Shown piece after piece: positions 2,935-15,639 of a DNA stretch of 38,588 nucleotides (positions are counted from its first letter, which is position 1; each line of letters starts with the position of its first letter). This stretch comes from Segetibacter sp. Its GTDB lineage: Bacteria > Bacteroidota > Bacteroidia > Chitinophagales > Chitinophagaceae. Below the pieces are notes generated by a model. It saw only the letters and a program-made list of their open reading frames with translations. It did no database searches and was not told the origin of the DNA. The translations under genes were made by a program, and so were the position numbers. The stretch is from positions 1-38,588 of the forward strand of contig JAOQAJ010000234.1 in NCBI GenBank assembly GCA_025963675.1. The letters are read 5' to 3'.

Positions 2935-2942
2935 TATTTTTG
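2935..2942 (+). promoter_or_regulatory. Candidate -7 promoter box for the TMEM220-ebo operon
   Basis: TATTTTTG fits the Bacteroidota -7 consensus TAnnTTTG and lies 40 bp before the TMEM220-like start, giving a plausible short leader. The nearest TTG upstream (2918-2920) leaves only 14 bp, shorter than the usual spacing of about 19-21, so the -33 element is weak or absent. Confidence 0.4.
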
Positions 2943-2982: not shown

Positions 2983-3363
2983 ATGTTCTTAAGTATTTTG
3001 AACGGCTTTTTTTGTGTGGCATTTGTATTATTTGCTTATGTAAATATGAACGATAGCGACTCCTGGCTTTGGGTGCCTATTTATATGGTTGCCGCTATTT
3101 GTTGCGGCCTTGCAGCTTTTCATCTGTATTATCCCATCGTCTATCTTATTGCAATTGCCTTTTACATGATCTATGCAATTAAACTTTTTTTCGCGAAAGA
3201 TGGGGTGCGGGACTGGATCATGAAATATAACAAGCCAAGTATTGTGGAAAGTATGCAGGCAACCAAACCCTATATTGAAAAGACAAGAGAATTTTTTGGG
3301 CTTATTATTATTAGCGCTGCTTTAGCTATCGACTATTTTGCCGTAAATAATCTTTATTCATGA
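2983..3363 (+). CDS. TMEM220-family small membrane protein, first gene of the ebo operon
   Basis: A 126-aa protein with about four hydrophobic segments (roughly residues 2-20, 29-46, 49-68 and 103-120). Two family motifs are visible: NMNDSDSWLWVPIYMVAA near the start and ATKPYIEKTREFFGLIII near the end, matching the eukaryotic and bacterial TMEM220 family. The biochemical role of that family is unknown to me. The TGA stop (3361-3363) is one base from the eboA ATG at 3365, so the two are almost certainly co-transcribed and probably translationally coupled. A paralogue with the same two motifs sits just past the other end of the cluster (10326-10712). The context suggests an inner-membrane role in the Ebo pathway, which is inference. 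Confidence 0.85.
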   Translation: MFLSILNGFFCVAFVLFAYVNMNDSDSWLWVPIYMVAAICCGLAAFHLYYPIVYLIAIAFYMIYAIKLFFAKDGVRDWIMKYNKPSIVESMQATKPYIEKTREFFGLIIISAALAIDYFAVNNLYS

Positions 3364-3364
3364 T

Positions 3365-4234
3365 ATGCAGCAAAGCAACCGAAATGTATTAGAAGGGATA
3401 ATCACTGATATCTTACAACATAATGTATTAGCGGAGATCAATGACTGGCTGCAGGAAAAGGCTACATTAATTCGTGAGGAAAAAAACGCTTCACACCTAA
3501 ACCTCACTTTTGCTGCAGTTCCAAGAAAAACCGGAAGGCAACAGGTTAAAGTAGTCACCGAAGAGCAGGAAAGACTAAAAGAAATTCATCCTCAATTTTC
3601 TCTTAATGATTGGACAATTGACCGTCTTTGTAGAGTTTGGATCTTACTGCAAGTAGATTCGTCGGATAAAGAAACTTATTTCAGGAAAGTAGAAAACCTG
3701 TTCAAGGCAGCGGAGATGAATGAATTGGTTGCGCTGTACTCTGCACTTATCGGTTTAGATTATATTGAAGACTGGCAAAACCAGTGTGCTGAAGGTATCC
3801 GTAGCAATATTGGTCTTGTTTTGGAAGCAATCATGTACAATAATCCATATCCTTACAAATATCTAAGTGAGCTGGCCTGGAACCAGTTGGTGATGAAAGC
3901 TTTTTTTACTGATAAAGATGTTCGCCGAATTATTGGATTAGACGAAAGAGCAAATAAAGAATTAGCGGCCATATTAATTGATTATGCTAATGAGCGTTGG
4001 GCGGCTCATCGCGTTGTAAATCCTCAGTTGTGGCGTTTGGTTACTAAATTTATTAATGCTGAAAACTTCGCCCACATAGAAAAAGCTTTTAATAGTGCTG
4101 ATCTTTCTGAAAAGAAAGCTGCTGCTCTTGCTTGTTTCTATAGTAACTATCAACCAGCAAAAAATTTGCTTGACAACGAGCCGGAATTAAAATCTGCTAT
4201 TAAAGAAAATAAACTGAACTGGAACACTTTGTAG
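3365..4234 (+). CDS. eboA: EboA-like protein
   Basis: A 289-aa soluble, helix-rich protein without signal peptide or recognisable catalytic motif. It is identified mainly by being the first gene of a collinear set that matches eboA-B-C-D-E-F, plus its general EboA-like character (HEAT-like helices, for example LNDWTIDRLCRVWILLQV and a C-terminal segment rich in Ala/Glu/Lys). EboA is a family named from the ebo operon shared by cyanobacteria, Bacteroidota, Pseudomonas and some algal plastids; its molecular function is unknown. It starts 1 bp after the upstream TMEM220-like stop and ends 32 bp before eboB. The start MQQSNRNVLEG is the first in-frame ATG after that stop. Confidence 0.85.
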   Translation: MQQSNRNVLEGIITDILQHNVLAEINDWLQEKATLIREEKNASHLNLTFAAVPRKTGRQQVKVVTEEQERLKEIHPQFSLNDWTIDRLCRVWILLQVDSSDKETYFRKVENLFKAAEMNELVALYSALIGLDYIEDWQNQCAEGIRSNIGLVLEAIMYNNPYPYKYLSELAWNQLVMKAFFTDKDVRRIIGLDERANKELAAILIDYANERWAAHRVVNPQLWRLVTKFINAENFAHIEKAFNSADLSEKKAAALACFYSNYQPAKNLLDNEPELKSAIKENKLNWNTL

Positions 4235-4266
4235 TTCCCATTATTAACTATTGATCATTTAGCCAT

Positions 4267-5253
4267 ATGTGTTGCAGCTCTTTTGACGGTGAAAAAACAA
4301 ATCCAACAGAAAGCCAGGCTACTGTTGATTTGCAAGGGATAAAAGGAATGCGGTTTTTTGATCCGCACGTTCACATGACTTCGCGTACAACCGATGATTA
4401 CCAGGCGATGTATGACGCTGGAGTCGTTGCACTCATCGAACCGGCATTCTGGCTGGGCCAGGCAAGAACAGGCATTGATAGTTTTCGCGATTACTATAGC
4501 AGCCTTATCGGTTGGGAAAGGTTCCGCTCCTCACAATTTGGCATAAAGCATTATTGTACTATCGGTTTAAATTCACGTGAAGCAAACAACGAGCGGCTTG
4601 CCGAACAGGTAATGGAAATACTGCCATTATTTATTTTAAAGGAAGGTGTTGTCGGCGTAGGTGAAATTGGTTTCGATGACCAGACTCCAGCCGAAGAAAA
4701 ATATTACCGGGCACAATTGGAACTGGCAAAAGAAGCTGGACTTCCCGTTCAAATTCATACACCACACCGCGACAAAAAAAGGGGCACGCGTCGCAGTATG
4801 GATATTGCGCTTGAACATGGTTTGAGCCCCGACATGGTAGTGGTTGACCACAATAATGAAGAAACCGTAAAAGAAGTTTTGGATCGAGGTTTTTGGGCAG
4901 CTTTTACCATTTACCCTTTTACCAAAATGGGCAATGAACGCATGGTCGATATTGTAAAGCAATACGGTACTGATCGCATCATGGTTAACTCCGCCGCCGA
5001 TTGGGGTATAAGCGATCCGCTTGCTGTGCCAAAGACTGCTGCTTTAATGAAGCTTCGCGGCATTAATACCGAAGATATCCATATGGTCACGTATCAAAAT
5101 GCCATCACCGCTTTTGGCAAAAGCGGCCAAATAAATGAAGAAGATTTCGTAACCATCAAAAACATAGATCAATCTGTGAAGTTCGAAGGCAATACGGTGC
5201 TGCGCGGTGGTCAGCAGCCTCGAATTGATAAGGCTTCTATTATCATCAGCTAA
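4267..5253 (+). CDS. eboB: EboB, TatD-like metal-dependent hydrolase
   Basis: A TIM-barrel amidohydrolase of the TatD type. Metal-binding residues are visible in order: H34 and H36 (FFDPHVHM), E133 (GEIGFD), H164 and H167 (QIHTPHRDK), H195 (VVDHNN) and D245 (NSAADWG), so the active site looks complete. Substrate is unknown; in the ebo pathway it may hydrolyse a precursor. Start choice is uncertain. The ATG at 4267 adds about 27 residues (MCCSSFDGEKTNPTES...) before the conserved domain. An ATG at 4348, giving MRFFDPHVHM, has a purine-rich CAAGGGAT about 9 bp upstream and would place the domain right at the N-terminus as in most TatD proteins. Followed by a hairpin and a dispersed repeat before eboC. 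Confidence 0.9.
   Translation: MCCSSFDGEKTNPTESQATVDLQGIKGMRFFDPHVHMTSRTTDDYQAMYDAGVVALIEPAFWLGQARTGIDSFRDYYSSLIGWERFRSSQFGIKHYCTIGLNSREANNERLAEQVMEILPLFILKEGVVGVGEIGFDDQTPAEEKYYRAQLELAKEAGLPVQIHTPHRDKKRGTRRSMDIALEHGLSPDMVVVDHNNEETVKEVLDRGFWAAFTIYPFTKMGNERMVDIVKQYGTDRIMVNSAADWGISDPLAVPKTAALMKLRGINTEDIHMVTYQNAITAFGKSGQINEEDFVTIKNIDQSVKFEGNTVLRGGQQPRIDKASIIIS
4348..4350 (+). promoter_or_regulatory. Alternative eboB start codon
   Basis: ATG 4348-4350 is preceded by CAAGGGAT at 4333-4340, one of the few Shine-Dalgarno-like stretches in the window, and begins the product directly at MRFFDPHVH. It may be the true start, with the 4267 ATG being upstream noise. Confidence 0.45.
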
Positions 5254-5254
5254 A

Positions 5255-5290
5255 CTGGTATTTAGAATGCCTTTTTAAATACCAGCTTTG
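5255..5290 (+). terminator. Terminator-like hairpin between eboB and eboC
   Basis: CTGGTATTTA (5255-5264) and TAAATACCAG (5276-5285) form a perfect 10-bp stem with an 11-nt loop, followed by CTTTGGTTTTTC. It begins 2 bp after the eboB stop. It resembles an intrinsic terminator but the T-tract is interrupted, so it may act as a partial terminator, an attenuator or an mRNA 3'-end stabiliser within the operon. Confidence 0.55.
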
Positions 5291-5304
5291 GTTTTTCATT
5301 GAAT

Positions 5305-5360
5305 CATCGTTGCGTCGCAATCACTTTATCTGCATCGCTTCGATTAGCTTTAGCCTTTAT
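5305..5360 (-). repeat. Dispersed intergenic repeat, copy A
   Basis: Core CATCGTTGCGTCGCA at 5305-5319, then ATCACTTTATCTGC and a distal GCCTTTAT at 5353-5360. The same core and distal GCCTTT block recur at five further intergenic sites in this window. Strand is an arbitrary convention: '-' means the core reads CATCGTTG on the plus strand. Confidence 0.7.
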
Positions 5361-5401
5361 TTGCAAGTAGCTTTCTTTATTTAAAACCGCCGAAAACAAT
5401 A

Positions 5402-6292
5402 GTGAAAAAAACAACCGGGTATCTTAGGCTGATGAGGCCAGCAAACATTGTTACTTCCGTTGCAGATATTTTGGCCGGTGTCGCTATTTCCGGGTATCTC
5501 ATTTTTAACTTAAATGCAATCCCAAACCTTTTTCCTGTTTTGCTTCTTTGCCTGTCAACCATAGGTCTATATGGCGGTGGTGTAGTTTTTAATGACGTTT
5601 TTGATGCTGACCTTGATATGGTTGAACGTCCCGAACGTCCCATTCCCAGCGGCCTTATTACTAAAACTGAAGCTACCAGGCTAGCGTCTCTCCTTATAGC
5701 ATTTGGAATTATTTGTGCATTTTTAGTCAATATAACTTCAGGCATCCTTGCTTTCTTCGTTGCCGCTGCAGCAATTGTTTACGACAGATTTGGAAAACAT
5801 CATTCATTTTTAGGTCCGTTAAATATGGGGTTATGTCGCGGCCTAAACCTGTTATTAGGAATAAGCATTTTGCCATTCGAAGTGCAGTATTGCTGGTTTC
5901 TTGCCGTTGTTCCCATAATATATATTGCTTCCATCACCATGATCAGCAGAGGTGAAGTGCATGGTGGAAGTAAAGCGACTTTGTATACTGCGTCGTTTCT
6001 GTATGCTATCGTAATCGTATCTATTCTTTACTTTTCTTTTGTAAAAGGCAACCAGTTATTCGCACTTATTTTCCTGGTACCTTTTGCCTGGATGATCTTC
6101 ACTCCTTTACTGGCAGCGATAAAAGAACCCGTCGGAAAAAATATTGGCAAAGCAGTGAAATCAGGGGTTTTAGCATTGATACTTATGAATGCAGCTTGGG
6201 CTGCGGCTTTTGGTGCTTGGTACATTGCCTTACTAATTGTTATTTTATTACCTATATCTTTAAAATTGGGACGACTTTTTGCAGTTACCTGA
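5402..6292 (+). CDS. eboC: EboC, UbiA-like prenyltransferase
   Basis: An integral-membrane protein of 296 aa with about eight or nine hydrophobic helices, of the UbiA prenyltransferase superfamily, which transfers a prenyl chain to an acceptor. The first Asp-rich motif is intact as NDVFDADLD (N64, D65, D68, D72), the diphosphate/Mg site. The usual second Asp-rich motif is not visible; the matching loop reads SRGEVHGG (about 182-189) with only one acidic residue. The start is GTG at 5402, since the next in-frame ATG (residue 11) would remove the conserved LRLMRPANI entry to helix 1. It is separated from eboB by 148 bp holding a hairpin and a repeat. Acceptor and prenyl donor are unknown. Confidence 0.92.
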   Translation: MKKTTGYLRLMRPANIVTSVADILAGVAISGYLIFNLNAIPNLFPVLLLCLSTIGLYGGGVVFNDVFDADLDMVERPERPIPSGLITKTEATRLASLLIAFGIICAFLVNITSGILAFFVAAAAIVYDRFGKHHSFLGPLNMGLCRGLNLLLGISILPFEVQYCWFLAVVPIIYIASITMISRGEVHGGSKATLYTASFLYAIVIVSILYFSFVKGNQLFALIFLVPFAWMIFTPLLAAIKEPVGKNIGKAVKSGVLALILMNAAWAAAFGAWYIALLIVILLPISLKLGRLFAVT

Positions 6293-6300
6293 TATATTTG
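6293..6300 (+). promoter_or_regulatory. Candidate internal -7 box before eboD
   Basis: TATATTTG matches TAnnTTTG and starts right after the eboC stop. No TTG is found at the expected 19-21 bp spacing (nearest leave 11 or 24 bp). If active it would transcribe eboD-E-F with a leader of about 85 nt that carries two hairpins. Confidence 0.3.
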
Positions 6301-6301
6301 C

Positions 6302-6318
6302 GCATTGAAAATCAATGC
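6302..6318. repeat. Small inverted repeat in eboC-eboD spacer
   Basis: GCATTGA-AAA-TCAATGC is a perfect 7-bp stem with a 3-nt loop. There is no T-tract, so it is not a terminator; it could be a leader hairpin or a protein-binding site. Confidence 0.4.
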
Positions 6319-6359
6319 TAACATCCTTTAGCAGAAAGAATTCGCTGAACATTAGAAAA

Positions 6360-6373
6360 GCCGGCAAACCGGC
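6360..6373. repeat. GC-rich hairpin just upstream of eboD
   Basis: GCCGG-CAAA-CCGGC makes a 5-bp all-GC stem with a tetraloop, ending 17 bp before the eboD ATG. It is the most GC-rich point of the spacer and close enough to affect translation initiation or RNA processing. Confidence 0.4.
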
Positions 6374-6390
6374 AGAGCATAATTTTTATC

Positions 6391-7557
6391 ATGTCTGATT
6401 ATTTGCAACAATCTTTTACAGTAAGCTTTGAATACCGGGTGCATTTTACCAGTGGCCTTTTCGATATAACCAATCCAGTATTAAATGATTTTTTTGTTCA
6501 TCGATTGGAAGAAGGTCTCGACCAAAAAATATTGTTTGTAATAGATGAAGGAGTTACCAAAACTCATCCGGATCTTGCAGATAAGATTAATGCTTACTTT
6601 GATCACTACACTACTGTTAAGCTTGCAGACCAGATCATCGTGCTGGCGGGCGGCGAACAAGCAAAAAACAATCCCTTTTTCGTTGAATATTTAATCAATG
6701 CAGTAAACGAGTACGGTATAGATCGCCATTCTTACTTAGCAGGAATCGGCGGCGGCTCAATGCTCGATCTTGCAGGATTCGCCGCTGCCGTTTCTCACCG
6801 TGGGGTAAAACACATTCGCATCCCTACAACTGTGTTATCTCAAAACGATTCTGGTATTGGCGTCAAGAATGGGGTTAATTTTAAAAACAAGAAAAACTTT
6901 ATTGGAACATTTTCCCCACCGGTCGCTGTTTTCAACGATGATCAGTTTTTAACAACACTCACTGATCGCGACTGGCGCTCCGGCATGTCTGAAGCCATCA
7001 AAGTTGCTTTGATAAAAGATGCTGCATTTTTCAATTGGCTTGAAGACAACTCGATCAGGCTGGCACAAAGAGATCTTTCTGCCATGAACTTTCTTATTAA
7101 GCGCTGCGCAGAACTTCATCTCGAACACATTCGTAGCGGTGATCCATTTGAGACCGGGTCTGCCCGACCATTAGACTTTGGTCATTGGAGCGCACATAAA
7201 CTTGAACAGCTTACAAACTTCGAAGTTTTACATGGTGAGGCTGTAGCAATGGGAATAGCATTAGATAGTGTTTATTCTGGCTTAAAGGGCGATTTGTCTG
7301 AAAGTGATGTAACAAGAATTCTAAACGTGCTACGAAATCTGGGTTTTGAATTGATGCATCCCTTAATGGATGTGCAGGAAGAAAATAGCCCTGTATTACA
7401 AGGTCTCAATGAGTTCAGGGAACACCTGGGGGGTCAGCTGACAATTACTTTACTTGCGGCAATTGGACAAGGATATGAAGTGCATGAAATGGACTGGCAT
7501 TTGCTAAAGTCAGCAGTAGAAAAATTAAAAAGCTTTGAATTGGAAACAGTGAAATAA
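6391..7557 (+). CDS. eboD: EboD, sugar-phosphate cyclase (3-dehydroquinate synthase-like)
   Basis: A 388-aa member of the DHQS/sedulose-type sugar-phosphate cyclase superfamily: NAD-dependent, metal-dependent cyclisation of a phosphorylated ketose. The NAD motif GIGGGSMLDLAG (about 118-129) is present, as are the three expected metal ligands E201 (MSEAIKVALIKD), H265 (LDFGHWSAHK) and H281 (VLHGEAVAMG). The metal loop reads LDFGH where true dehydroquinate synthases normally have LNFGH; from memory an Asp here is seen in C7-cyclitol synthases that use sedoheptulose 7-phosphate. The flanking cluster also argues against a shikimate role. The exact substrate cannot be read from sequence. Start ATG 6391 gives the normal family length. 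Confidence 0.92.
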   Translation: MSDYLQQSFTVSFEYRVHFTSGLFDITNPVLNDFFVHRLEEGLDQKILFVIDEGVTKTHPDLADKINAYFDHYTTVKLADQIIVLAGGEQAKNNPFFVEYLINAVNEYGIDRHSYLAGIGGGSMLDLAGFAAAVSHRGVKHIRIPTTVLSQNDSGIGVKNGVNFKNKKNFIGTFSPPVAVFNDDQFLTTLTDRDWRSGMSEAIKVALIKDAAFFNWLEDNSIRLAQRDLSAMNFLIKRCAELHLEHIRSGDPFETGSARPLDFGHWSAHKLEQLTNFEVLHGEAVAMGIALDSVYSGLKGDLSESDVTRILNVLRNLGFELMHPLMDVQEENSPVLQGLNEFREHLGGQLTITLLAAIGQGYEVHEMDWHLLKSAVEKLKSFELETVK

Positions 7558-7712
7558 GTGACAGCTATAGGTAAATTAGCTGCTAAAGTTTTCACTGCAA
7601 CTGACATCAATTGTCGCAACCAATTATACCACTAATTCTTTAGGTGTTATTTTTAAGGTTTTAAGACATATTTCCTGATTATAGAAATAACAGGTAAAAT
7701 TGCTTATCAGAT
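7558..7712. other. 155-bp eboD-eboE spacer
   Basis: The longest gap in the ebo cluster. It has only weak inverted repeats (for example CCTGATTA paired with TAACAGG near 7675-7693) and no TAnnTTTG box with a -33 partner. A leader, a weak promoter or simple drift are all possible. Confidence 0.3.
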
Positions 7713-8924
7713 ATGAAAACGGCTCACGGATACTTAACTTACTGTACAAACATCCACGCAGGCGAAGATTGGGACAACCATTTTGCTGCATTAAAACTGC
7801 ATTTCCCTAAGATCAAAAGTGCTTTGTCCCAGACCCAAAAAATGGGAATCGGGTTGCGACTGTCAAACGTTGCAAGTGAAGAGTTATCACAACGAGAACA
7901 ACTGCTCATTTTCAAACAATGGCTTTTAGAAAATAATGCTTACGTTTTTACCATGAATGGTTTCCCATTCGGAGGTTTTCATAACACAATTGTAAAGGAC
8001 CAGGTACATGCGCCCGACTGGACAACCACCGAAAGACTTGATTATACAAAACGGTTGTTCAATATACTTGCAGAATTACTTCCGGAAAATATAGATGGCG
8101 GCGTTTCCACCTCACCGTTAAGTTACCGGTATTGGTTTCCATCGGATGACTCGCTTGGCCTGGCTAAAGAAATATCAACAAATCACATTTTGGATGTAGC
8201 AGAACACCTCATTGACATTTTCAATTCTACAGGTAAAACCCTACATCTTGATATTGAACCGGAGCCCGACGGAATTTTAGAATCCGGGAAAGAATTTCTC
8301 GAATGGTATCAAAACTACCTGCTTAATGCAGGAGTTAAAAGGATTTCTTCAAAATATGCTGTTTCTCATGATCAGGCCGAAAAAATGATCAAGAAACATA
8401 TCTGTTTGTGTTACGACGTTTGTCATTTTGCTATAGGTTATGAACCACACGCGGAAGTAATCAAACAACTGGCGGCAGAAAGGATACAAGTTGGAAAAAT
8501 CCAGATAAGCGCTGCCTTAAAAGCGCCGATGACTGAAGACATAGACACAAGATCAAAGGTCAAAGAAGCCTTTGCCGGCTTTAATGAAACAACTTATCTG
8601 CACCAGGTTATTGCTCGTAAAAGTGAAGGAGGCTTTATCAGGTATCGTGATCTTCCTGAAGCATTAGCTGACGCTGAAAATCCTTTGGTTAACGAATGGC
8701 GTGCACATTTTCATGTACCTGTTTTTGAAAAAGATTTCGGTCTTCTGGAATCAACTCAAACAGATATCGCCGATGTTCTCGAAATTCAAAAAAACAATCC
8801 TTTTACGAATCATCTCGAAGTAGAAACGTATACTTGGGAAGTTCTATCTGAAACATTAAAACTACCAATTGATCAATCCATTATAAGAGAGTTGAACTGG
8901 GTGGCAAAACAACTGTCTACATAA
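7713..8924 (+). CDS. eboE: EboE, TIM-barrel sugar isomerase/epimerase-like protein
   Basis: A 403-aa protein of the xylose-isomerase-like TIM-barrel superfamily, recognised as EboE from the N-terminus HGYLTYCTNIHAGEDW and its place between the cyclase and the phosphatase-fold protein. Candidate metal-binding residues are E182 and E184 (HLDIEPEPDG), and D235 and H238 (CYDVCHFAIGYE). NCBI-style naming calls this a metabolite traffic protein; the reaction has not been defined to my knowledge. No signal peptide, so cytoplasmic. It ends 15 bp before eboF, indicating tight co-transcription with it. Confidence 0.9.
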   Translation: MKTAHGYLTYCTNIHAGEDWDNHFAALKLHFPKIKSALSQTQKMGIGLRLSNVASEELSQREQLLIFKQWLLENNAYVFTMNGFPFGGFHNTIVKDQVHAPDWTTTERLDYTKRLFNILAELLPENIDGGVSTSPLSYRYWFPSDDSLGLAKEISTNHILDVAEHLIDIFNSTGKTLHLDIEPEPDGILESGKEFLEWYQNYLLNAGVKRISSKYAVSHDQAEKMIKKHICLCYDVCHFAIGYEPHAEVIKQLAAERIQVGKIQISAALKAPMTEDIDTRSKVKEAFAGFNETTYLHQVIARKSEGGFIRYRDLPEALADAENPLVNEWRAHFHVPVFEKDFGLLESTQTDIADVLEIQKNNPFTNHLEVETYTWEVLSETLKLPIDQSIIRELNWVAKQLST

Positions 8925-8939
8925 GAATTTAGTAAGCAT

Positions 8940-10295
8940 ATGAATAAAACTGTCGTCATTGATATTGTAGGGCTATCGCAAAACCTGATAGGAGAATTTA
9001 CACCATTCATTAAAGAATATGTTTCAAGACAGAACCTGGCAACCATCGATCCTGTTTTGCCTGCGGTCACGACTTCAGTTCAATCAACTTATGTTACCGG
9101 TAAATGGCCGGCGGAACATGGCATTGTAGGAAATGGATGGTACGACCGTGAGGATTGCGAGGTCAAGTTCTGGAAGCAGTCTAATAAACTGGTTCACGCC
9201 GAAAAGATCTGGGAACGTGCAAAAAAGGAAGATCCGAATTTTACCTGTTCAACTATGTTTTGGTGGTACAATATGTACACAGCAGCCGAGTATTCTGTTA
9301 CACCACGGCCTAATTATCTGGCAGATGGCCGCAAAATGCCTGATTGCTATTCGCATCCGGCTGAATTAAGAGATGAATTGCAAGCTAAGCTCGGACAATT
9401 TCCATTATTCCAGTTTTGGGGACCGGGTGCTAACATAAAATCAACAGCATGGATTGCCGATGCATCAATGATGACTGATGATAAATATGATCCTACACTT
9501 ACCCTCATATACCTTCCTCATTTAGATTATTGCCTTCAAAAATTTGGACCTGATTTTTCAAAAGTGAATAAGGAATTGCAGGAAGTTGACCAGGTTGTAG
9601 AAAAGCTGGTAAAGTTTTATGAGAAGAAGGGCGCTTCAATTATTCTACTATCAGAATATGGAATTGCTCCTGTAAATAATCCTATTCATCTTAACCGTTT
9701 GTTTCGTGAAAACGGGCTTTTACAAATACGGGTTGAAAGAGGCCTTGAGTTATTAGATCCCGGCGCATCAAAGGCTTTTGTGGTAGCGGATCACCAGGTC
9801 GCTCATGTTTATATCAATGATACAACAGTTACGGAAAAAGTAAAAAAACTGCTCGAAAAGGTACCGGGAATAGCGTTAATGCTTGATCGGCAAGCACAGG
9901 CCGATTACCAGATTAATCATGAGAGAGCGGGGGAATTTGTTTTAATGGCAGACGAAAAAAGCTGGTTCACCTATTACTTCTGGCTTGATGATGCAAAAGC
10001 ACCAGACTATGCCCGGGTAGTTGATATACATAAAAAACCAGGCTATGATCCGGTAGAAATGTTTATGACTTCAAAAGCTCGGGCCGGATATAAATTGCTG
10101 CGAAAAAAAGCAGGATTCAGGTATGTAATGGATGTAATTCCGTTAGACGCTACACTAATAAAAGGCTCTCACGGAAACATAAAAACTTCCTCAGAGTTTC
10201 ATCCCGTATTAGTAACAAATAGTAAAGTGAGTGAAAATAATCGGGTTGTAGGAACAGATGTTTATGACATCATTTGGAAGCATTTGAAAAATTGA
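8940..10295 (+). CDS. eboF: EboF, alkaline-phosphatase/nucleotide-pyrophosphatase-fold protein
   Basis: A 451-aa protein of the type I phosphodiesterase/nucleotide pyrophosphatase superfamily. Seen: D8 (VVIDIVG, first metal ligand), a nucleophile-like Thr in LPAVTTSVQSTYVTGKWPAEHG (T44 or T45), and a C-terminal GSHGN His. But the central ligands differ from canonical enzymes. The D-x-x-x-H motif appears as LDYCLQ (D196 kept, His replaced by Q200), and the SDHG motif appears as SEYG (E239, Y240). Either the family has an altered metal centre or it binds rather than cleaves its ligand. No signal peptide is evident. It is the last gene of the cluster and converges on the second TMEM220-like gene 30 bp away. 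Confidence 0.9.
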   Translation: MNKTVVIDIVGLSQNLIGEFTPFIKEYVSRQNLATIDPVLPAVTTSVQSTYVTGKWPAEHGIVGNGWYDREDCEVKFWKQSNKLVHAEKIWERAKKEDPNFTCSTMFWWYNMYTAAEYSVTPRPNYLADGRKMPDCYSHPAELRDELQAKLGQFPLFQFWGPGANIKSTAWIADASMMTDDKYDPTLTLIYLPHLDYCLQKFGPDFSKVNKELQEVDQVVEKLVKFYEKKGASIILLSEYGIAPVNNPIHLNRLFRENGLLQIRVERGLELLDPGASKAFVVADHQVAHVYINDTTVTEKVKKLLEKVPGIALMLDRQAQADYQINHERAGEFVLMADEKSWFTYYFWLDDAKAPDYARVVDIHKKPGYDPVEMFMTSKARAGYKLLRKKAGFRYVMDVIPLDATLIKGSHGNIKTSSEFHPVLVTNSKVSENNRVVGTDVYDIIWKHLKN

Positions 10296-10325
10296 CACTT
10301 ATATGGACTAGGAAGATATTTGCTC

Positions 10326-10712
10326 TTACTTACTTGCAAGTTGGCTTCCTTTTTTTAACCATCTCATATTTATCAATAAAGCAATAATTACTATAAATAA
10401 TCCTCCGAACTCGCGCGTTTCTTCAATCCATGGTTTCGTGGCCTTCATCGTTTGAACCAGGTTTTCTGCATCGTGTTCTTTTGCCCAACTTAATACCCCT
10501 GTCTTATCAAAAAAAAGATATGCGGCGTAACCAACGTAAATAGTCAGCCCAACTATAAACAGAGGACGATAATATTTATTCTTAATTGAAAGAAAGCACA
10601 AAAAAGCCGCGTATAAATAGATAGGTATCCAGATATAAGGATCAGGATCGTTGTATTGAAGTGCTGCAAATCCTACGAATAGTATTATAAAAAGTACGTT
10701 TAAAACTTTCAT
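10326..10712 (-). CDS. TMEM220-family small membrane protein, second copy
   Basis: A 128-aa membrane protein with about four hydrophobic segments. It shares the two diagnostic stretches of the gene at 2983-3363: YNDPDPYIWIPIYLYAA here against MNDSDSWLWVPIYMVAA, and ATKPWIEETREFGGLFI against ATKPYIEKTREFFGLII. The two copies thus bracket the ebo cluster, the first co-directional at its head and this one convergent at its tail, 30 bp from the eboF stop. Divergence between the copies is high, so this is an old duplication or separate acquisition, not a recent tandem copy. Function unknown. Confidence 0.85.
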   Translation of the reverse strand: MKVLNVLFIILFVGFAALQYNDPDPYIWIPIYLYAAFLCFLSIKNKYYRPLFIVGLTIYVGYAAYLFFDKTGVLSWAKEHDAENLVQTMKATKPWIEETREFGGLFIVIIALLINMRWLKKGSQLASK

Positions 10713-10770
10713 ATGAACAACTTGTTAAGCTTGTTTTAATTCACAGTACCAGCATCTAAGGTAACAAATG

Positions 10771-10806
10771 AAAAAAGTATATTTCTCTATACAGAAATAT
10801 ACTTTT
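10771..10806 (-). terminator. Intrinsic terminator after the DUF1080 operon
   Basis: AAAAGTATATTTCT (10773-10786) and AGAAATATACTTTT (10793-10806) form a perfect 14-bp stem with a 6-nt loop. Read on the minus strand it lies 24 bp past the stop at 10830 and ends in a T-run, as expected for an intrinsic terminator, though the stem is AT-rich. Confidence 0.75.
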
Positions 10807-10829
10807 CAATGCATTTTTAGGTAATTCTC

Positions 10830-11609
10830 TTATAAAGGTCGTAACCAGATATTTCTATAACTTATTGGCTCGCTCTTATCACCGTGCGACTGCAGCTTGA
10901 TCGGAGCAGGACCATGTTTGCGATATGACGGCATGCCTATATATGGGGTGTCGCCTAACAGGGTAACATTATTTTGAACAAGAACCCCGTTGTGAATTAC
11001 GGTTACTCTTGCCAACGACTTCAACGTTCCATTATCATTCCACTTAGGTGCGGTCCAAACCACGTCATAAGTCTGCCACTCGCCCGGCTTGCGTGATGCA
11101 TTGGCTAAAGGAACCGCCTGTTTGTACATACTGCCCACCTGGCCGTTTACATAAGTTGTGTTTTTGAAATTATCGAGCACCTGCAATTCGTACCCACCTG
11201 GTCCCCAGGGAAGGGCTGCCAGAAAAATTCCGCTGTTACCGCGCGCTTGCCCCGAACCGGTAATGTTAGAAGGTATACGATATTCAATGTGCAATTGATA
11301 GTCGGTAAAAGAACTTCTGGTTTGAATATCTCCAATGCTTTTATTCACCGTCATTACATTATCGGCTAATGTCCATTTTGCTGCAGTAGAGTCTTTGCTG
11401 TTAATCCATTGGCTAAGGTTAGAGCCATCAAATAAAACGATTGCATCAGAAGGAGCATCACCGAAATGGGCACCCGGAGTTACTATTGGTGGAACTGGAG
11501 AGTAAAATTCAGTTTCTTCTGGTTTCATTCTTTCTTGAGAAAAAGCAAAAGATGAGATGCCGATTACTGCGGCGGCTGCTAATACAATCTTCTTCATTTT
11601 ATCTTTCAT
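10830..11609 (-). CDS. Secreted DUF1080 (3-keto-disaccharide hydrolase-like) protein
   Basis: A 259-aa protein of PF06439 (DUF1080), a concanavalin-like jelly-roll fold; family members have been linked to hydrolysis of 3-keto-glycosides. A signal peptide is clear (MKKIVLAAAAVIGISSFAFSQ); the internal ATG at residue 5 gives a cleaner signal peptide than the first ATG at 11609. Characteristic stretches are IVLFDGSNLSQWIN, NSGIFLAALPWGPGGYELQVLDN, GEWQTYDVVWTAP and the closing PIKLQSHGDKSEPISYRNIWLRPL. It is the last gene of a three-gene unit, 58 bp after the propeller/cytochrome gene, and is followed by a strong hairpin. Catalytic residues are not assigned. Confidence 0.9.
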   Translation of the reverse strand: MKDKMKKIVLAAAAVIGISSFAFSQERMKPEETEFYSPVPPIVTPGAHFGDAPSDAIVLFDGSNLSQWINSKDSTAAKWTLADNVMTVNKSIGDIQTRSSFTDYQLHIEYRIPSNITGSGQARGNSGIFLAALPWGPGGYELQVLDNFKNTTYVNGQVGSMYKQAVPLANASRKPGEWQTYDVVWTAPKWNDNGTLKSLARVTVIHNGVLVQNNVTLLGDTPYIGMPSYRKHGPAPIKLQSHGDKSEPISYRNIWLRPL

Positions 11610-11667
11610 TGATAATTTAAAAAATCAATTTATCGGTTTTTTATTTCAAACAGGGTATTGAACTTAT

Positions 11668-13710
11668 TTACTTTTTTTCCAAACCTTTTATATATTCTGC
11701 AATTTTTCTTGCATCTGCATTAGACACCTGCGGCATTGGTGGCATCGGCGTTGAATAATCAGGCCAGTTCTCAGGTTTTGGATTATGAATAAGGTTAATA
11801 ATTTGGGCGACGCTATATTTACGCTTCGCGACATCAACATAAGCAGGACCCACCTGGCGGGTATTCTGATTGTGACATGCAAGGCAGGTATTTTTTTGCA
11901 AGAGGTTTTTTACCTCTGCAAATGTTGGTGCCTTTGTTGTTGCAGCTTTCGATGTTGTTGGTTTTGCTCCGGCTTTTGGCTGAGTTGTTGGCTCCTCCCC
12001 TGTCGCAGGATTTGCTGCTGCACCTTTTGTGTTTTTAAACCTAACAGGAACTGCACTCTTAGAAGGTAATGCACTTCCTTTTGTTCCTTTGCCAGAGTTC
12101 TTAGTACTTAGTTGACTGATAGGAAGCTTAGTTCCTTCGGGAATATTATTTAGCGTATAGTAAGCCGTAGGATGTACTAAAGAGAAAAAATTTTCTTTGT
12201 CCTGAAGTCCGGCTAAAGTAATAGTATGGATGTAATTTTTTCGCAGGTTACTCACAACGATCCTCGCCTTCATACCATCGTCAGAAACCTTCACACCAGT
12301 GATCTGTCCCTTTTCGGTATTTACAGGAGGACTGCCATATACTGCATGATATTTATAAGTATAACTTTCTACCGAATAAGAAGCTATATCTTCTGCCGTC
12401 TTTCTATCTACTGGTTTAGTAAACTCAATTTCAAAACCATCAGGCATAGCCCTTACTGCCCTCATTTCAAATGGAACCGAATTGTTCCAGACCAAACGCT
12501 GAAGCCCTTCCGTAGCTTCACCAGCAGATCCCCAACCACGATTTGTTTCTCCAACAATCAATGAACCATCTTTTGCCCAGGCAAGCCTAACGATTCCAGA
12601 TTGAAAACCACTACGAAACGCCCATGATGCTCCCTGGTATTCTCCATTTATTTTTTCCAGAAAAACTCTGTCAAGCATACTTTGTCCCTGGTCTCCTACC
12701 AATAACTGACCAGCAAAAGGGCCAAAAGATCCCTCGGGTATTTTTACAATTTCAGAGTTAGAAATACCTAAAATACCGTGAGGTAGCCAAACTGCCGGTA
12801 ACTGTAATTCAGGAACAAATTGTTTCATATCCGACAATGTCATGAACTTTTCATTTACAATGTTGGGTGGCTTCACTGGCTGGCCTTCTTTATCTACATC
12901 AAGCCTTGGATTTATTTTAGCGAAAATTTGCTCTTGTTTAAGTTTTATAGGTGAATTTGGTAAATCGGTCCAAACCAAACCTGAAGGATGACCTAAAAAA
13001 GCTCCCCGTCGTATCGGCCTCAAACTACCCGATCCTACCCAATCACCCTGGTTGTCAGTATACCATAATTCTCCATCAATCATACTTATTCCGCAGGGCG
13101 AACGGAAACCTGTTGCCCAAGGTTCAAAGCTTCCATCTTCACGAATATTTAGCGCCCATCCTCTCCACGGCACAAAGCTTCTCGGATGCCACCAGTCGCC
13201 AGGAAAGCCAAGATTCAACGTAACAAAGAAAGAACCGTCAGGGGCCAGCTTCGGACCAAAACTATATTCATGATAATTACCTGAAACGGGCCACGCATAC
13301 ACTGTTTCATAAACATCCGCCTTACCATCCATGTCAGTATCTACTAACTTGGTTAATTCACCACGCTGAGCACAATAAAGCGCTCCATCTTTATATTCCA
13401 GTCCGAGGACTTCATGCATTCCTGTAGCAAATTTTCTAAAGTAAGGACGCTGGCTTGTCGGATTTTCCACGATAAACACATCTCCCCTCCTGGTAGTTAC
13501 CCCAACGTTGCCGTTGGGTAAAGTACACAGTCCGCCTACTTCAAGTATGACACCTTCCGGCGCAGGTACCCGCATTATTTTAAAATAGTCTTCCTCTTTT
13601 GCAGACTCTGCCTGCGAAAATCCTTCATGCCTGACAGCTGCTATAGCAATAGCCAATAGCAGAACAGGAAGTAACTTCTTTGGTTTAAAATTTTTTGCTG
13701 TATAAAACAT
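11668..13710 (-). CDS. Beta-propeller (PQQ-dehydrogenase-like) protein with C-terminal cytochrome c
   Basis: A 680-aa exported protein. In order: signal peptide (about 1-33), a six-bladed propeller of the glucose/sorbosone dehydrogenase type (about 45-400; VGGLCTLPNGNVGVTTRRGDVFIV, GYHEYSFGPKLAPDGSFFV-like strands), a small beta domain (about 415-520), a Pro/Thr/Lys-rich linker (about 535-595), and a class I cytochrome c. The heme site is C609-L-A-C612-H613 and a Met ligand is available in MPPMPQVSN. Likely a periplasmic redox protein passing electrons from an oxidised sugar to heme; the propeller may or may not bind PQQ. It lies 13 bp after one DUF1080 gene and 58 bp before another, supporting a joint oxidise-then-cleave pathway, which is inference. 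Confidence 0.88.
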   Translation of the reverse strand: MFYTAKNFKPKKLLPVLLLAIAIAAVRHEGFSQAESAKEEDYFKIMRVPAPEGVILEVGGLCTLPNGNVGVTTRRGDVFIVENPTSQRPYFRKFATGMHEVLGLEYKDGALYCAQRGELTKLVDTDMDGKADVYETVYAWPVSGNYHEYSFGPKLAPDGSFFVTLNLGFPGDWWHPRSFVPWRGWALNIREDGSFEPWATGFRSPCGISMIDGELWYTDNQGDWVGSGSLRPIRRGAFLGHPSGLVWTDLPNSPIKLKQEQIFAKINPRLDVDKEGQPVKPPNIVNEKFMTLSDMKQFVPELQLPAVWLPHGILGISNSEIVKIPEGSFGPFAGQLLVGDQGQSMLDRVFLEKINGEYQGASWAFRSGFQSGIVRLAWAKDGSLIVGETNRGWGSAGEATEGLQRLVWNNSVPFEMRAVRAMPDGFEIEFTKPVDRKTAEDIASYSVESYTYKYHAVYGSPPVNTEKGQITGVKVSDDGMKARIVVSNLRKNYIHTITLAGLQDKENFFSLVHPTAYYTLNNIPEGTKLPISQLSTKNSGKGTKGSALPSKSAVPVRFKNTKGAAANPATGEEPTTQPKAGAKPTTSKAATTKAPTFAEVKNLLQKNTCLACHNQNTRQVGPAYVDVAKRKYSVAQIINLIHNPKPENWPDYSTPMPPMPQVSNADARKIAEYIKGLEKK

Positions 13711-13723
13711 ATGTTCTATTAAT

Positions 13724-15574
13724 TTAGAAAAGGATAGAATAGGTTATTTTGCTTTGAATAGGAATAATAAGTTCTTTATGCCCATTGGAATCTCTTATCA
13801 CCGGTTTTGAGCCGCCTGTATTATCCAGGCGCAGGTAGTAAGATTTGTCGTTAACGAGGTAAAGCCCCTCAGACACCGTCTCAATTTTATCTGCTTCAGC
13901 TAACCGTATGAACAAATTTGCTACCGGACTTGCTACTGAAATTTCACGTTGCAGGCCCTGGTTGTTTTCCATTACCCGTGTTACATCATTTACCATCGTA
14001 TTATAAATCTGGTAACGGAAAGTAGGTCTGTCAGTCGCATCCAGTATGTAACCTTTAGAACGATAACCGGTACCTGCAGTATCTGCAGACCATGAGGCGG
14101 CGGATGCCCCTAATGTTTGAAGCGCCATTATCGGCTTACCAAATTTTAGTAAAGATCCTGAAGGTCTTGATGAGCCATCACCGCGCGAATGCCACATGGG
14201 TGTCGCATCTAAAAAACCCCCACGCCACGCCTGCACAATCATTCCTTTATCAAGATCAAATGTATAATGTAGTTGTTGGGGACTGCCTACATTAACTGCA
14301 TGTGTAACCCTTACTGTATCCACGTCCATAAAACTGCGAAGAATGGTGTTTACAGGTGCACTTATCAATATCGGATTAACAGGATCACCGGAAGCAACAT
14401 TTTGATCACTGATTATATATTCTCTAAAACCGGGGCCAGCAATCGCAAGGCCTAATGCAGGTTTTGCAAAATCGAAGATTTTCGAATACAACAGTTCAAA
14501 CGGCAAATCACCTGCTGGTAAAGTAACTCTACCTCTGCCTCTTTGCTGCCCAACATTTACTACAGTGTTATTATTAATGATCATCGATCCTTTACCACCT
14601 TGCAGACTTAAGTTGAAATTATAAGCTCCTGGTTCTTTTACACGAAGTGTACCTGTATAGCGAATGACAAATTCATTTTCAAGATTGCTTACATTGGATG
14701 ATAGTATAACAGAGGTTCCTTCCGCATCTGGTGGAAGTTTTTTATAATCCGGCGTTGTTTCAAACTTGCCTTTATAAACCGAATATTTCAGGTTTAGCAA
14801 TTCGGGTCTTGGCTTATCAAATGCGGTAACTTTAATATTTCTGAAAGCAACTGAACCATGATCTCCCTGTAGCCGCAAGGGGCCCATAGCTACTTCATCA
14901 CCGACCATTGCTCCTCTTGTAGGACCAGAAAGTTCTACGTTTTCCTGGATAGACACGCCATTTAATTCAACACGTAATATTTTAGCATTTTCAATCTTTG
15001 TACCAGTAGTATTAAAACGCGGCGCCTGAAAAGAGATTTTGATATGCTGCCATAAGCCAGGAGCACGGCTTGCATTTTGACGCGGGGCATGTCCTTCGTA
15101 GCCCTTTTGGCCTTCCGGCTTACCTTCATTCCAGCGCTCGTATATCCCTCCATTGTCACCTGCTTTTGGATTAACAACGCCCCAGCTGTCCAGCAATTGA
15201 ATTTCGTAACGACCTTGCATATAGATGCCCGAATTAGAACCAAGAGCCATCATATAGTCAAGCTCGAGGTCCATATCGCCATGCTGCATCTTTGAAACAA
15301 GATCCTGCCCTGTATTATTAAAATCAGTGATATTGACCAATACCCCTGTTCCTGTAGTTGTAGTTAAGATGGATTTCTGAGCAAGATCTCCTCTCACATC
15401 ACTTGCAACTCTCCAGGTAGAACCAGCACTTTGAAAATAAGAAAGATCAGTAAGCGGTACTGTTATTTGAGCATTGAGAAACTGAGAACCAAATGCACAG
15501 CCAATAGCCATAACAACACCGGCACAACTCAACTTTGGCTGCTTACTTCGAAAACGAAAAATTGAAAACTTCAT
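13724..15574 (-). CDS. Secreted DUF1080 protein with PA14-like and C-terminal unknown domain
   Basis: A 616-aa protein read from the ATG at 15574; a TTG three codons upstream also stays in frame but has no support. A signal peptide ends near SQFLNAQ. Residues about 45-255 form a DUF1080 jelly roll (NSGIYMQGRYEIQLLDSWG, LWQHIKISFQAPRF, GPLRLQGDHGSVAFRNIKV). Residues about 300-385 resemble a PA14-type module (VKEPGAYNFNLSLQGGKGSMI). The last about 200 residues carry HAVNVGSPQQLHYTFDLDKG and WRGGFLDATPMWHSRGDGSSRP, a stretch I recall from large secreted oxidoreductase-associated proteins of Bacteroidota and Planctomycetota. It is first in the operon. A substrate-binding or hydrolytic role on keto-sugars is plausible but not proven. 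Confidence 0.85.
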   Translation of the reverse strand: MKFSIFRFRSKQPKLSCAGVVMAIGCAFGSQFLNAQITVPLTDLSYFQSAGSTWRVASDVRGDLAQKSILTTTTGTGVLVNITDFNNTGQDLVSKMQHGDMDLELDYMMALGSNSGIYMQGRYEIQLLDSWGVVNPKAGDNGGIYERWNEGKPEGQKGYEGHAPRQNASRAPGLWQHIKISFQAPRFNTTGTKIENAKILRVELNGVSIQENVELSGPTRGAMVGDEVAMGPLRLQGDHGSVAFRNIKVTAFDKPRPELLNLKYSVYKGKFETTPDYKKLPPDAEGTSVILSSNVSNLENEFVIRYTGTLRVKEPGAYNFNLSLQGGKGSMIINNNTVVNVGQQRGRGRVTLPAGDLPFELLYSKIFDFAKPALGLAIAGPGFREYIISDQNVASGDPVNPILISAPVNTILRSFMDVDTVRVTHAVNVGSPQQLHYTFDLDKGMIVQAWRGGFLDATPMWHSRGDGSSRPSGSLLKFGKPIMALQTLGASAASWSADTAGTGYRSKGYILDATDRPTFRYQIYNTMVNDVTRVMENNQGLQREISVASPVANLFIRLAEADKIETVSEGLYLVNDKSYYLRLDNTGGSKPVIRDSNGHKELIIPIQSKITYSILF

Positions 15575-15639
15575 TTGTTTCAAATTAGTAGTATTTAAAA
15601 AAATATAATTATTCTGGTTATATGCTAAAGTAAATTTCT

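Follow-up and report, generated by a model that had tools for sequence, protein, structure and literature searches.

TMEM220 genes flanking an ebo cluster in Segetibacter

The stretch of DNA analysed here (the window) comprises 38,588 nucleotides of contig JAOQAJ010000234.1 from Segetibacter sp., a member of the Bacteroidota. It contains a complete ebo cluster, eboABCDEF, a set of genes that occurs in several bacterial phyla and some plastids of algae and has been described for eustigmatophyte plastids and bacteria (PMC5133447), together with two genes of the TMEM220 family. The first of these, the head copy, ends 1 bp before the ATG of eboA, and the second, the tail copy, is convergent to eboF, with 30 bp separating the two stop codons (Table 1). 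The head gene belongs to a TMEM220 type (H-type) found in synteny with ebo in many genera, and the tail copy to a type without such a tie to ebo. We consider it rather likely that the window holds a seven-gene unit, TMEM220-eboABCDEF, whose head gene product acts at the membrane step of EboC.

A sequence-only reading of the window had described the whole ebo set in this order, with one TMEM220 gene just before eboA and a paralogue facing eboF, and both descriptions proved correct. The six ebo genes are intact and run along the plus strand from 3365 to 10295 with every frame open, matching curated and Pfam models, and both TMEM220 products exceed the cut-off of PF15071 exactly where they had been placed. 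Membership of the cluster was assigned with curated models for the EboA domain, EboC and EboE, and, for EboB, EboD and EboF, from their protein families (Table 1) and their place in the unit, in the order ABCDEF. The window thus resembles the published cluster in having all six genes, in that order and on one strand, an arrangement considered ancestral in Bacteroidetes (PMC5133447), and differs from it in the seventh gene. By its own account, that work left additional genes inserted in ebo clusters unanalysed.

On sequence grounds, the head gene and eboA would appear to share a transcript. Upstream of it there is a candidate -7 element matching TAnnTTTG, which we take to be the consensus in Bacteroidota; such a pattern match alone says nothing on function, and the same pattern scan found no TTG at a spacing of 17-23 bp from it. 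Both TMEM220 proteins conform to their family in scoring above the Pfam cut-off, in their length of about 126 aa and in their four hydrophobic stretches, with four hydropathy maxima above 1.5 each (residues 1-17, 29-45, 52-68 and 105-121 in the head copy); four membrane spans are presumably the defining trait of TMEM220. No third TMEM220 gene was found in the source genome, which is 88% complete.

The remaining products show several particularities. The start codon of eboC is GTG, with an alternative ATG at 5432, and EboC carries the Asp-rich motif NDVFDADLD. EboA does not reach the cut-off of the longer EboA_family model (226.9 bits, cut-off 320) and has no relative in PDB up to E 1 in a profile search; EboE had no match when the window proteins were compared with Pfam. 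Among the best 80 of 566 confirmed ebo loci, those nearest to the window are from Segetibacter; one of them (L062; L and G numbers designate loci and genomes) is 82% identical to it when five Ebo proteins are concatenated.

Table 1. Genes and sequence elements of the ebo region in the window
Feature	Position	Strand	Evidence
Candidate Bacteroidota -7 promoter element, TAnnTTTG	2935-2942	+	Pattern scan; upstream of head TMEM220
Head TMEM220	2983-3363	+	Pfam PF15071, 90.4 bits (cut-off 27)
eboA	3365-4234	+	NCBIfam EboA domain, 172.5 bits (cut-off 50)
eboB, TatD-like metallo-hydrolase	4267-5253	+	Pfam TatD_DNase, 66.6 bits
eboC, UbiA-like membrane prenyltransferase	5402-6292	+	NCBIfam prenyl_rel_EboC, 411.7 bits (cut-off 250)
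eboD, sugar phosphate cyclase, 3-dehydroquinate synthase-like	6391-7557	+	Pfam DHQ_synthase, DHQS_C; NF004852, 564.7 bits
eboE, TIM barrel metabolite traffic protein	7713-8924	+	NCBIfam TIM_EboE, 492 bits (cut-off 250)
eboF, type I phosphodiesterase / pyrophosphatase-like	8940-10295	+	Pfam Phosphodiest, 218.7 bits
Tail TMEM220, convergent to eboF	10326-10712	-	Pfam PF15071, 81.3 bits (cut-off 27)
Terminator-like 15-bp hairpin and T run	10772-10807	-	Between the 3-keto-disaccharide hydrolase gene and tail TMEM220

Occurrence of TMEM220 at ebo loci of Bacteroidota

The enrichment of TMEM220 genes next to ebo that the sequence-only reading had anticipated for Bacteroidota, the phylum covered by our genome-wide surveys, was evident among 80 named ebo loci. 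These are the best 80 of the 566 confirmed by alignment of EboE against public genomes, a selection that is biased to near relatives of the window. A TMEM220 gene occurred within about 10 kb at 38 of the 80 loci, against a chance expectation of around 0.3 (assuming 6-Mb genomes, about one copy each and 21-kb windows), and TMEM220 was the commonest family outside the ebo set itself, being called at 37 loci by the caller used for this count, which returned 14 loci for each of the next two families. The gene was located just before eboA and co-directional with it at 30 loci, with a gap of 40 bp or less in 21 and of 89-312 bp in the other nine, counting the first ATG as the start. At the other eight loci it was also before eboA, in divergent orientation; three of these genes are H-type and five, from Chitinophaga, are of the type of the tail copy (C-type, see below). 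The ebo genes themselves show the order ABCDEF on one strand in 71 of the 80 loci, several of the others being cut by contig ends.

Searching the whole genomes of the 42 remaining loci revealed a TMEM220 gene elsewhere in 39 of them, for a total of 77 out of 80, and the seven positive controls included in the search were all detected. The three negatives (L070, L077 and L111) are metagenome-assembled genomes. One locus counted among the 42 (L069) is actually head-linked, with its TMEM220 gene on a partner contig (L254). A weak match at L140 (E 4e-4) was excluded; the sole TMEM220 gene of that genome lies far from ebo in a genome-wide Pfam search.

We also examined three samples of genomes drawn without regard to ebo, which overlap slightly. 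In the phylum sample (296 genomes), TMEM220 was present in 18 of 24 genomes with EboE and in 22 of 272 without it, including one EboE-negative genome (G085) that scored below the cut-off and was counted but not typed; by genus, the figures were 13 of 16 versus 14 of 124 (p 1e-8). Likewise, the order sample (298 genomes) gave 22 of 23 versus 57 of 275, or 8 of 9 versus 36 of 131 genera (p 4e-4). In the family sample (251 genomes from what we infer to be Sphingobacteriaceae, the family of G080, since the TMEM220 coordinates of some members match those in named Pedobacter, Daejeonella, Olivibacter and Sphingobacterium genomes), TMEM220 was found in 73 of 84 ebo genomes versus 25 of 167 others, and in 59 of the 84 it was upstream of ebo and co-directional, as judged from distance and strand without every locus being read. 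Because of the slight overlap and the relatedness of the genomes, the p values are guides only. A strict confinement of TMEM220 to ebo genomes is ruled out by the many EboE-negative genomes that have one.

The linkage takes a variety of forms. Apart from the co-directional head arrangement, TMEM220 may be a divergent head gene (Chitinophaga, Agriterribacter), a co-directional tail gene (L196 in G182, and L258 and L259 in the two genomes G130 and G234), a convergent tail gene, or a gene with eboF on one side and an inverted eboCBA on the other (L193, G348). The co-directional tail genes include one with overlapping ends (L196, G182) and one with a 20-bp gap (L258). The family f5 site of these three loci exists with eboABCDEF and, in L246, without it, and TMEM220 is present in all four cases. 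The neighbourhoods of TMEM220 in 20 EboE-negative genomes have any other gene family in common at three loci at most, TMEM220 itself being called in 19 of the 20.

These comparisons bear on the possibility that a block of TMEM220 and ebo arose a single time in an ancestor and was then inherited or transferred whole, with TMEM220 as a neutral passenger outside the pathway, which we regard as improbable. It would fit the derivation of most head-type loci from a single clade of TMEM220 and a single portion of the ebo tree, and synteny within genera does account for part of the counts; for instance, in genus g15 (L177-L186) the five genomes fetched share a conserved block that places TMEM220 26-35 kb from eboE. 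However, outside the seven genes the order differs among genera while TMEM220 remains, other TMEM220 lineages adjoin ebo in different arrangements, and co-occurrence extends to genomes in which TMEM220 lies outside the 10 kb around ebo (39 of 42).

Two TMEM220 types and their neighbours

The relationships of the two copies were deduced from trees of 122 TMEM220 proteins and then, more carefully, of 73, in which proteins were labelled as linked when their genes were at most about 15 kb away from eboE. Both trees separate the two copies. In the 73-protein tree, the head copy belongs to a clade of 28 rows with support of 100/99, the H-type, and every row in it comes from an ebo genome. The tail copy belongs to the 19-row C-type clade (support 95/92), in which ebo and EboE-negative genomes are mixed, and which is a general TMEM220 type of Chitinophagaceae. 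The types also differ in sequence: in alignments where some genes enter twice, all 75 H-type rows have the motif N-x-N-D and all 162 other rows have Q-x-N-D, and the residue after N-D is proline in 148 of the 162 non-H rows versus 1 of the 75 H rows. The head copy is assigned to the H-type by its clade, its N-x-N-D motif and its ebo genome, and differs from the other TMEM220 proteins typed here in that motif and in having ebo as its genomic partner; the tail copy, with Q-Y-N-D-P-D, falls outside the H-type. An origin of both copies from a recent duplication is ruled out by their 39% identity and their separate, well supported clades. Among four Segetibacter-like loci, the tail copy is found in the window and L062, and not in L114 or G495.

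Nearly all H-type proteins come from ebo genomes. In the phylum and order samples the type occurs in seven genomes, all EboE-positive (G000, which is the source of the window, G080, G138, G464, G475, G495 and G499), and none was found among the 74 TMEM220 proteins (33 and 41) from EboE-negative genomes of these samples that were typed with two profiles. The 25 EboE-negative genomes with TMEM220 in the family sample comprise 20 with the other type, two with broken copies and three with the H-type (G649, G665 and G769), of which G769 is no true exception, since it has TMEM220-eboABCD at a contig edge. The broken copies, interrupted by stop codons, are both from genus g26 (L376 in G793 and L377 in G811) and score higher as the other type. 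In a tree of EboBCDEF, the 35 H-type rows (30 named loci and the window, all co-directional, three divergent loci, and G475, with its copy about 9 kb downstream) fall within a single 46-row part with full support.

Since its subfamily is almost confined to ebo genomes and the type of the tail copy is general, the most fitting reading of the head TMEM220 is that of a seventh gene in the ebo set. The proposal of the sequence-only reading that TMEM220 proteins are membrane partners of the Ebo pathway is supported in part, as a probable reading for the ebo-linked head type; for the tail copy, whose clade mixes ebo and EboE-negative genomes, it is not supported, and that this copy is a part of ebo is doubtful.

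The neighbourhood of the tail copy is of a different kind. Beyond it, three genes on the minus strand (10830-15583) encode two 3-keto-disaccharide hydrolases, one of which has a weak PA14 match, and a protein of 680 aa that contains a cytochrome c domain; the source genome has 18 matches to this hydrolase family. That the tail TMEM220 is the last gene of a hydrolase operon is made less likely by the terminator-like hairpin lying between them: the minus strand of 10740-10830 folds at -20.6 kcal/mol (z -2.99), and 2 of 200 shuffles were equally good. More widely in Chitinophagaceae, C-type TMEM220 genes are often placed 3' to 3' with a gene resembling a ThuA-GSDH fusion, whether EboE is present or not (L115, L120, L128, L148, L157, L161, L162, L165, L191, L249 and L253); the resemblance was established by tblastn, and with Pfam on two examples.

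Possible roles of TMEM220 in the Ebo pathway

Work on Nostoc implicates ebo in the export of scytonemin and suggests that its product might be a prenylated, perhaps cyclitol-based, lipid that aids export; EboC would sit in the membrane, and EboA might be an organiser (PMC6282210). An EboC homologue, Ubi-297, farnesylates 8-hydroxyquinoline-2-carboxylic acid in vitro (PMC9235831). We infer a direct role of the head TMEM220 in this pathway, as a four-helix inner-membrane protein that would act at the membrane step of the EboC prenyltransferase. It might organise EboC and the soluble enzymes of the pathway, or it might bind the prenylated product or pass it across the membrane; in the simplest case it would be a small EboC-associated protein. 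The conserved polar residues of the head copy lie in N-D-x-D, after helix 1, and in K-D-G and E-x-x-R-E, before helix 4, and with four predicted helices these two loops should be on the same side of the membrane, as would be expected for a site binding a polar head group. Across 33 head-type loci, the residual distance correlation of TMEM220 is highest with EboC, at a weak 0.31. For TMEM220, a profile search of PDB returned two matches at E 0.28, which we took as chance.

Several observations weigh against this reading. TMEM220 is absent from 11 of the 84 ebo genomes of the family sample, ten of them from one genus (g16, the Sphingobacterium-like genus that, by matching coordinates, is that of Sphingobacterium lumbrici) and the other being G777, which is 68% complete, and from 6 of the 24 ebo genomes of the phylum sample, so ebo can do without it. 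Conversely, G134 has TMEM220 and no ebo (L246) at the site where G182, G130 and G234 have ebo, indicating that TMEM220 can persist alone. A strict confinement of the H-type to ebo is ruled out by G649 and G665, which are EboE-negative and keep an H-type gene with no ebo gene nearby, and in G464 the H-type gene is on a different contig from ebo. Over the same 33 loci, TMEM220 distances correlate with those of Ebo proteins at r 0.36-0.62, versus 0.72-0.89 between Ebo proteins, and for EboA the residual value is negative (-0.28), so that the distance-based support for EboC is weak. Positive-inside counts place the head and tail copies in opposite topologies. Finally, the sequences are related, and the counts are therefore not independent events.

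The genomes without TMEM220 also speak against a broader suggestion of the sequence-only reading, that TMEM220 is perhaps the missing membrane component of the pathway. This overreaches, because in ten Sphingobacterium-like genomes ebo occurs without TMEM220 and with 3-ketoglycoside-type genes in its slot. In its full form, in which TMEM220 would be the general exporter for every Ebo system and the head and tail copies would serve it alike, we find the idea very unlikely. It would account for the adjacency and co-occurrence of TMEM220 and ebo and would agree with the precursor export in which ebo is implicated in Nostoc (PMC6282210), but the tail type is not ebo-specific and the plastid cluster is described with six genes (PMC5133447). 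Nor is there a TMEM220 gene within 9 kb of four plasmid ebo loci, one from Bacteroidota (Aureibacter) and three from two other phyla (Deinococcus, Salipiger and Mycetohabitans), and a tblastn search of 72,556 plasmids found none, within the limited reach of a single query, the head protein of the window. Two of the plasmid loci, from hosts of different phyla, have genes for a hypothetical protein of about 590-680 aa and a ferritin-like protein right before ebo (L058, 2046-5106, in Aureibacter; L061, 3879-6961, in Mycetohabitans); the hypothetical protein of Aureibacter had no Pfam match. On the Salipiger plasmid, ebo is followed by one small gene and then a gene for a PQQ-dependent dehydrogenase (L060, 14672-16819).

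What stands in the place of TMEM220 in genus g16 leads to a further alternative. All ten loci of this genus (L362-L371) have three co-directional genes of near-constant length before eboA, and a locus from another genus, with TMEM220 elsewhere in the genome, has the same layout (L374, G719); the sequences of the three genes were inspected in five loci, four from g16 and that of G719. By Pfam, those of L363 encode a xylose isomerase-like TIM barrel, a GFO/IDH/MocA oxidoreductase and a 3-keto-disaccharide hydrolase, and profile searches detect the hydrolase in the ten g16 loci and in G719. This hydrolase (DUF1080; PMC9007349) is one of the 3-ketoglycoside pathway genes. Genes for it were found at 19 of the 80 named ebo loci. 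Considering the 50 loci with counted genomes, 16 were positive versus 2.7 expected, 11 of them from Chitinophaga; by genus, there were 5 versus 1.2 expected (p 0.007, a genus counting when at least half of its loci are positive). The association of the hydrolase with ebo is weaker than that of TMEM220, and is a lead. Genes assigned to the 3-ketoglycoside pathway flank the tail TMEM220 in the window and adjoin ebo in some other genomes; unlike the ebo genes, they are not members of the published set and belong to families with many copies.

TMEM220 and ebo could thus be linked indirectly, both serving a periplasmic oxidation of sugars through 3-ketoglycosides, with TMEM220 as a partner of sugar oxidoreductases and not of Ebo enzymes. 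We deem this unlikely, if the most credible of the alternatives. Besides the hydrolase counts and the three-gene set of the g16 loci and G719, it could explain the frequent convergence of C-type TMEM220 with the ThuA-GSDH fusion-like gene in EboE-negative genomes as well, the xylose isomerase-like TIM barrel genes adjoining TMEM220 in L239, L252, L253 and L233, and the gene order of Olivibacter (L108), which is hydrolase, TMEM220, eboA-F. However, much of the head-type set comes from Pedobacter and Mucilaginibacter, and at none of their 15 loci counted does a hydrolase gene occur within about 10 kb; the positive loci are mostly those of Chitinophaga, and gene families of this kind are common, the hydrolase having 8 to 33 copies per genome.

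Neither the ebo cluster nor the TMEM220 family is new in itself. The seven-gene operon with a head-type gene and the TMEM220 subfamily dedicated to ebo look new within the literature searched, because the word TMEM220 does not occur in the main text of the ebo papers (PMC5133447, PMC6282210 and PMC9235831) and we found no paper joining TMEM220 with ebo or with an operon in a search that had most subscription journals and bioRxiv preprints outside its reach. By their titles, the papers on TMEM220 among the matches listed are human or animal studies. The human protein is reported to reside in the Golgi, and its knockdown to disturb the Golgi and the secretion of glycoproteins (PMC6979480).

A more speculative possibility, which we think improbable, is that Ebo in Bacteroidota is a membrane pathway for a prenylated, cyclitol-type lipid or redox cofactor, which TMEM220 would hold or flip for periplasmic enzymes of the ThuA/GSDH/cytochrome c and 3-ketoglycoside kinds. 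If true, such a tie between Ebo and periplasmic sugar oxidation would explain why TMEM220, ebo and sugar genes meet in varied ways, and ebo would for the first time have a metabolic setting beyond scytonemin. As to the head TMEM220 as a seventh ebo gene, a membrane protein that is nearly specific to the cluster opens a direct genetic test of ebo in tractable soil bacteria such as Pedobacter. For the TMEM220 family, whose human member is reported to have a secretion phenotype, it also supplies a genetic setting in bacteria.

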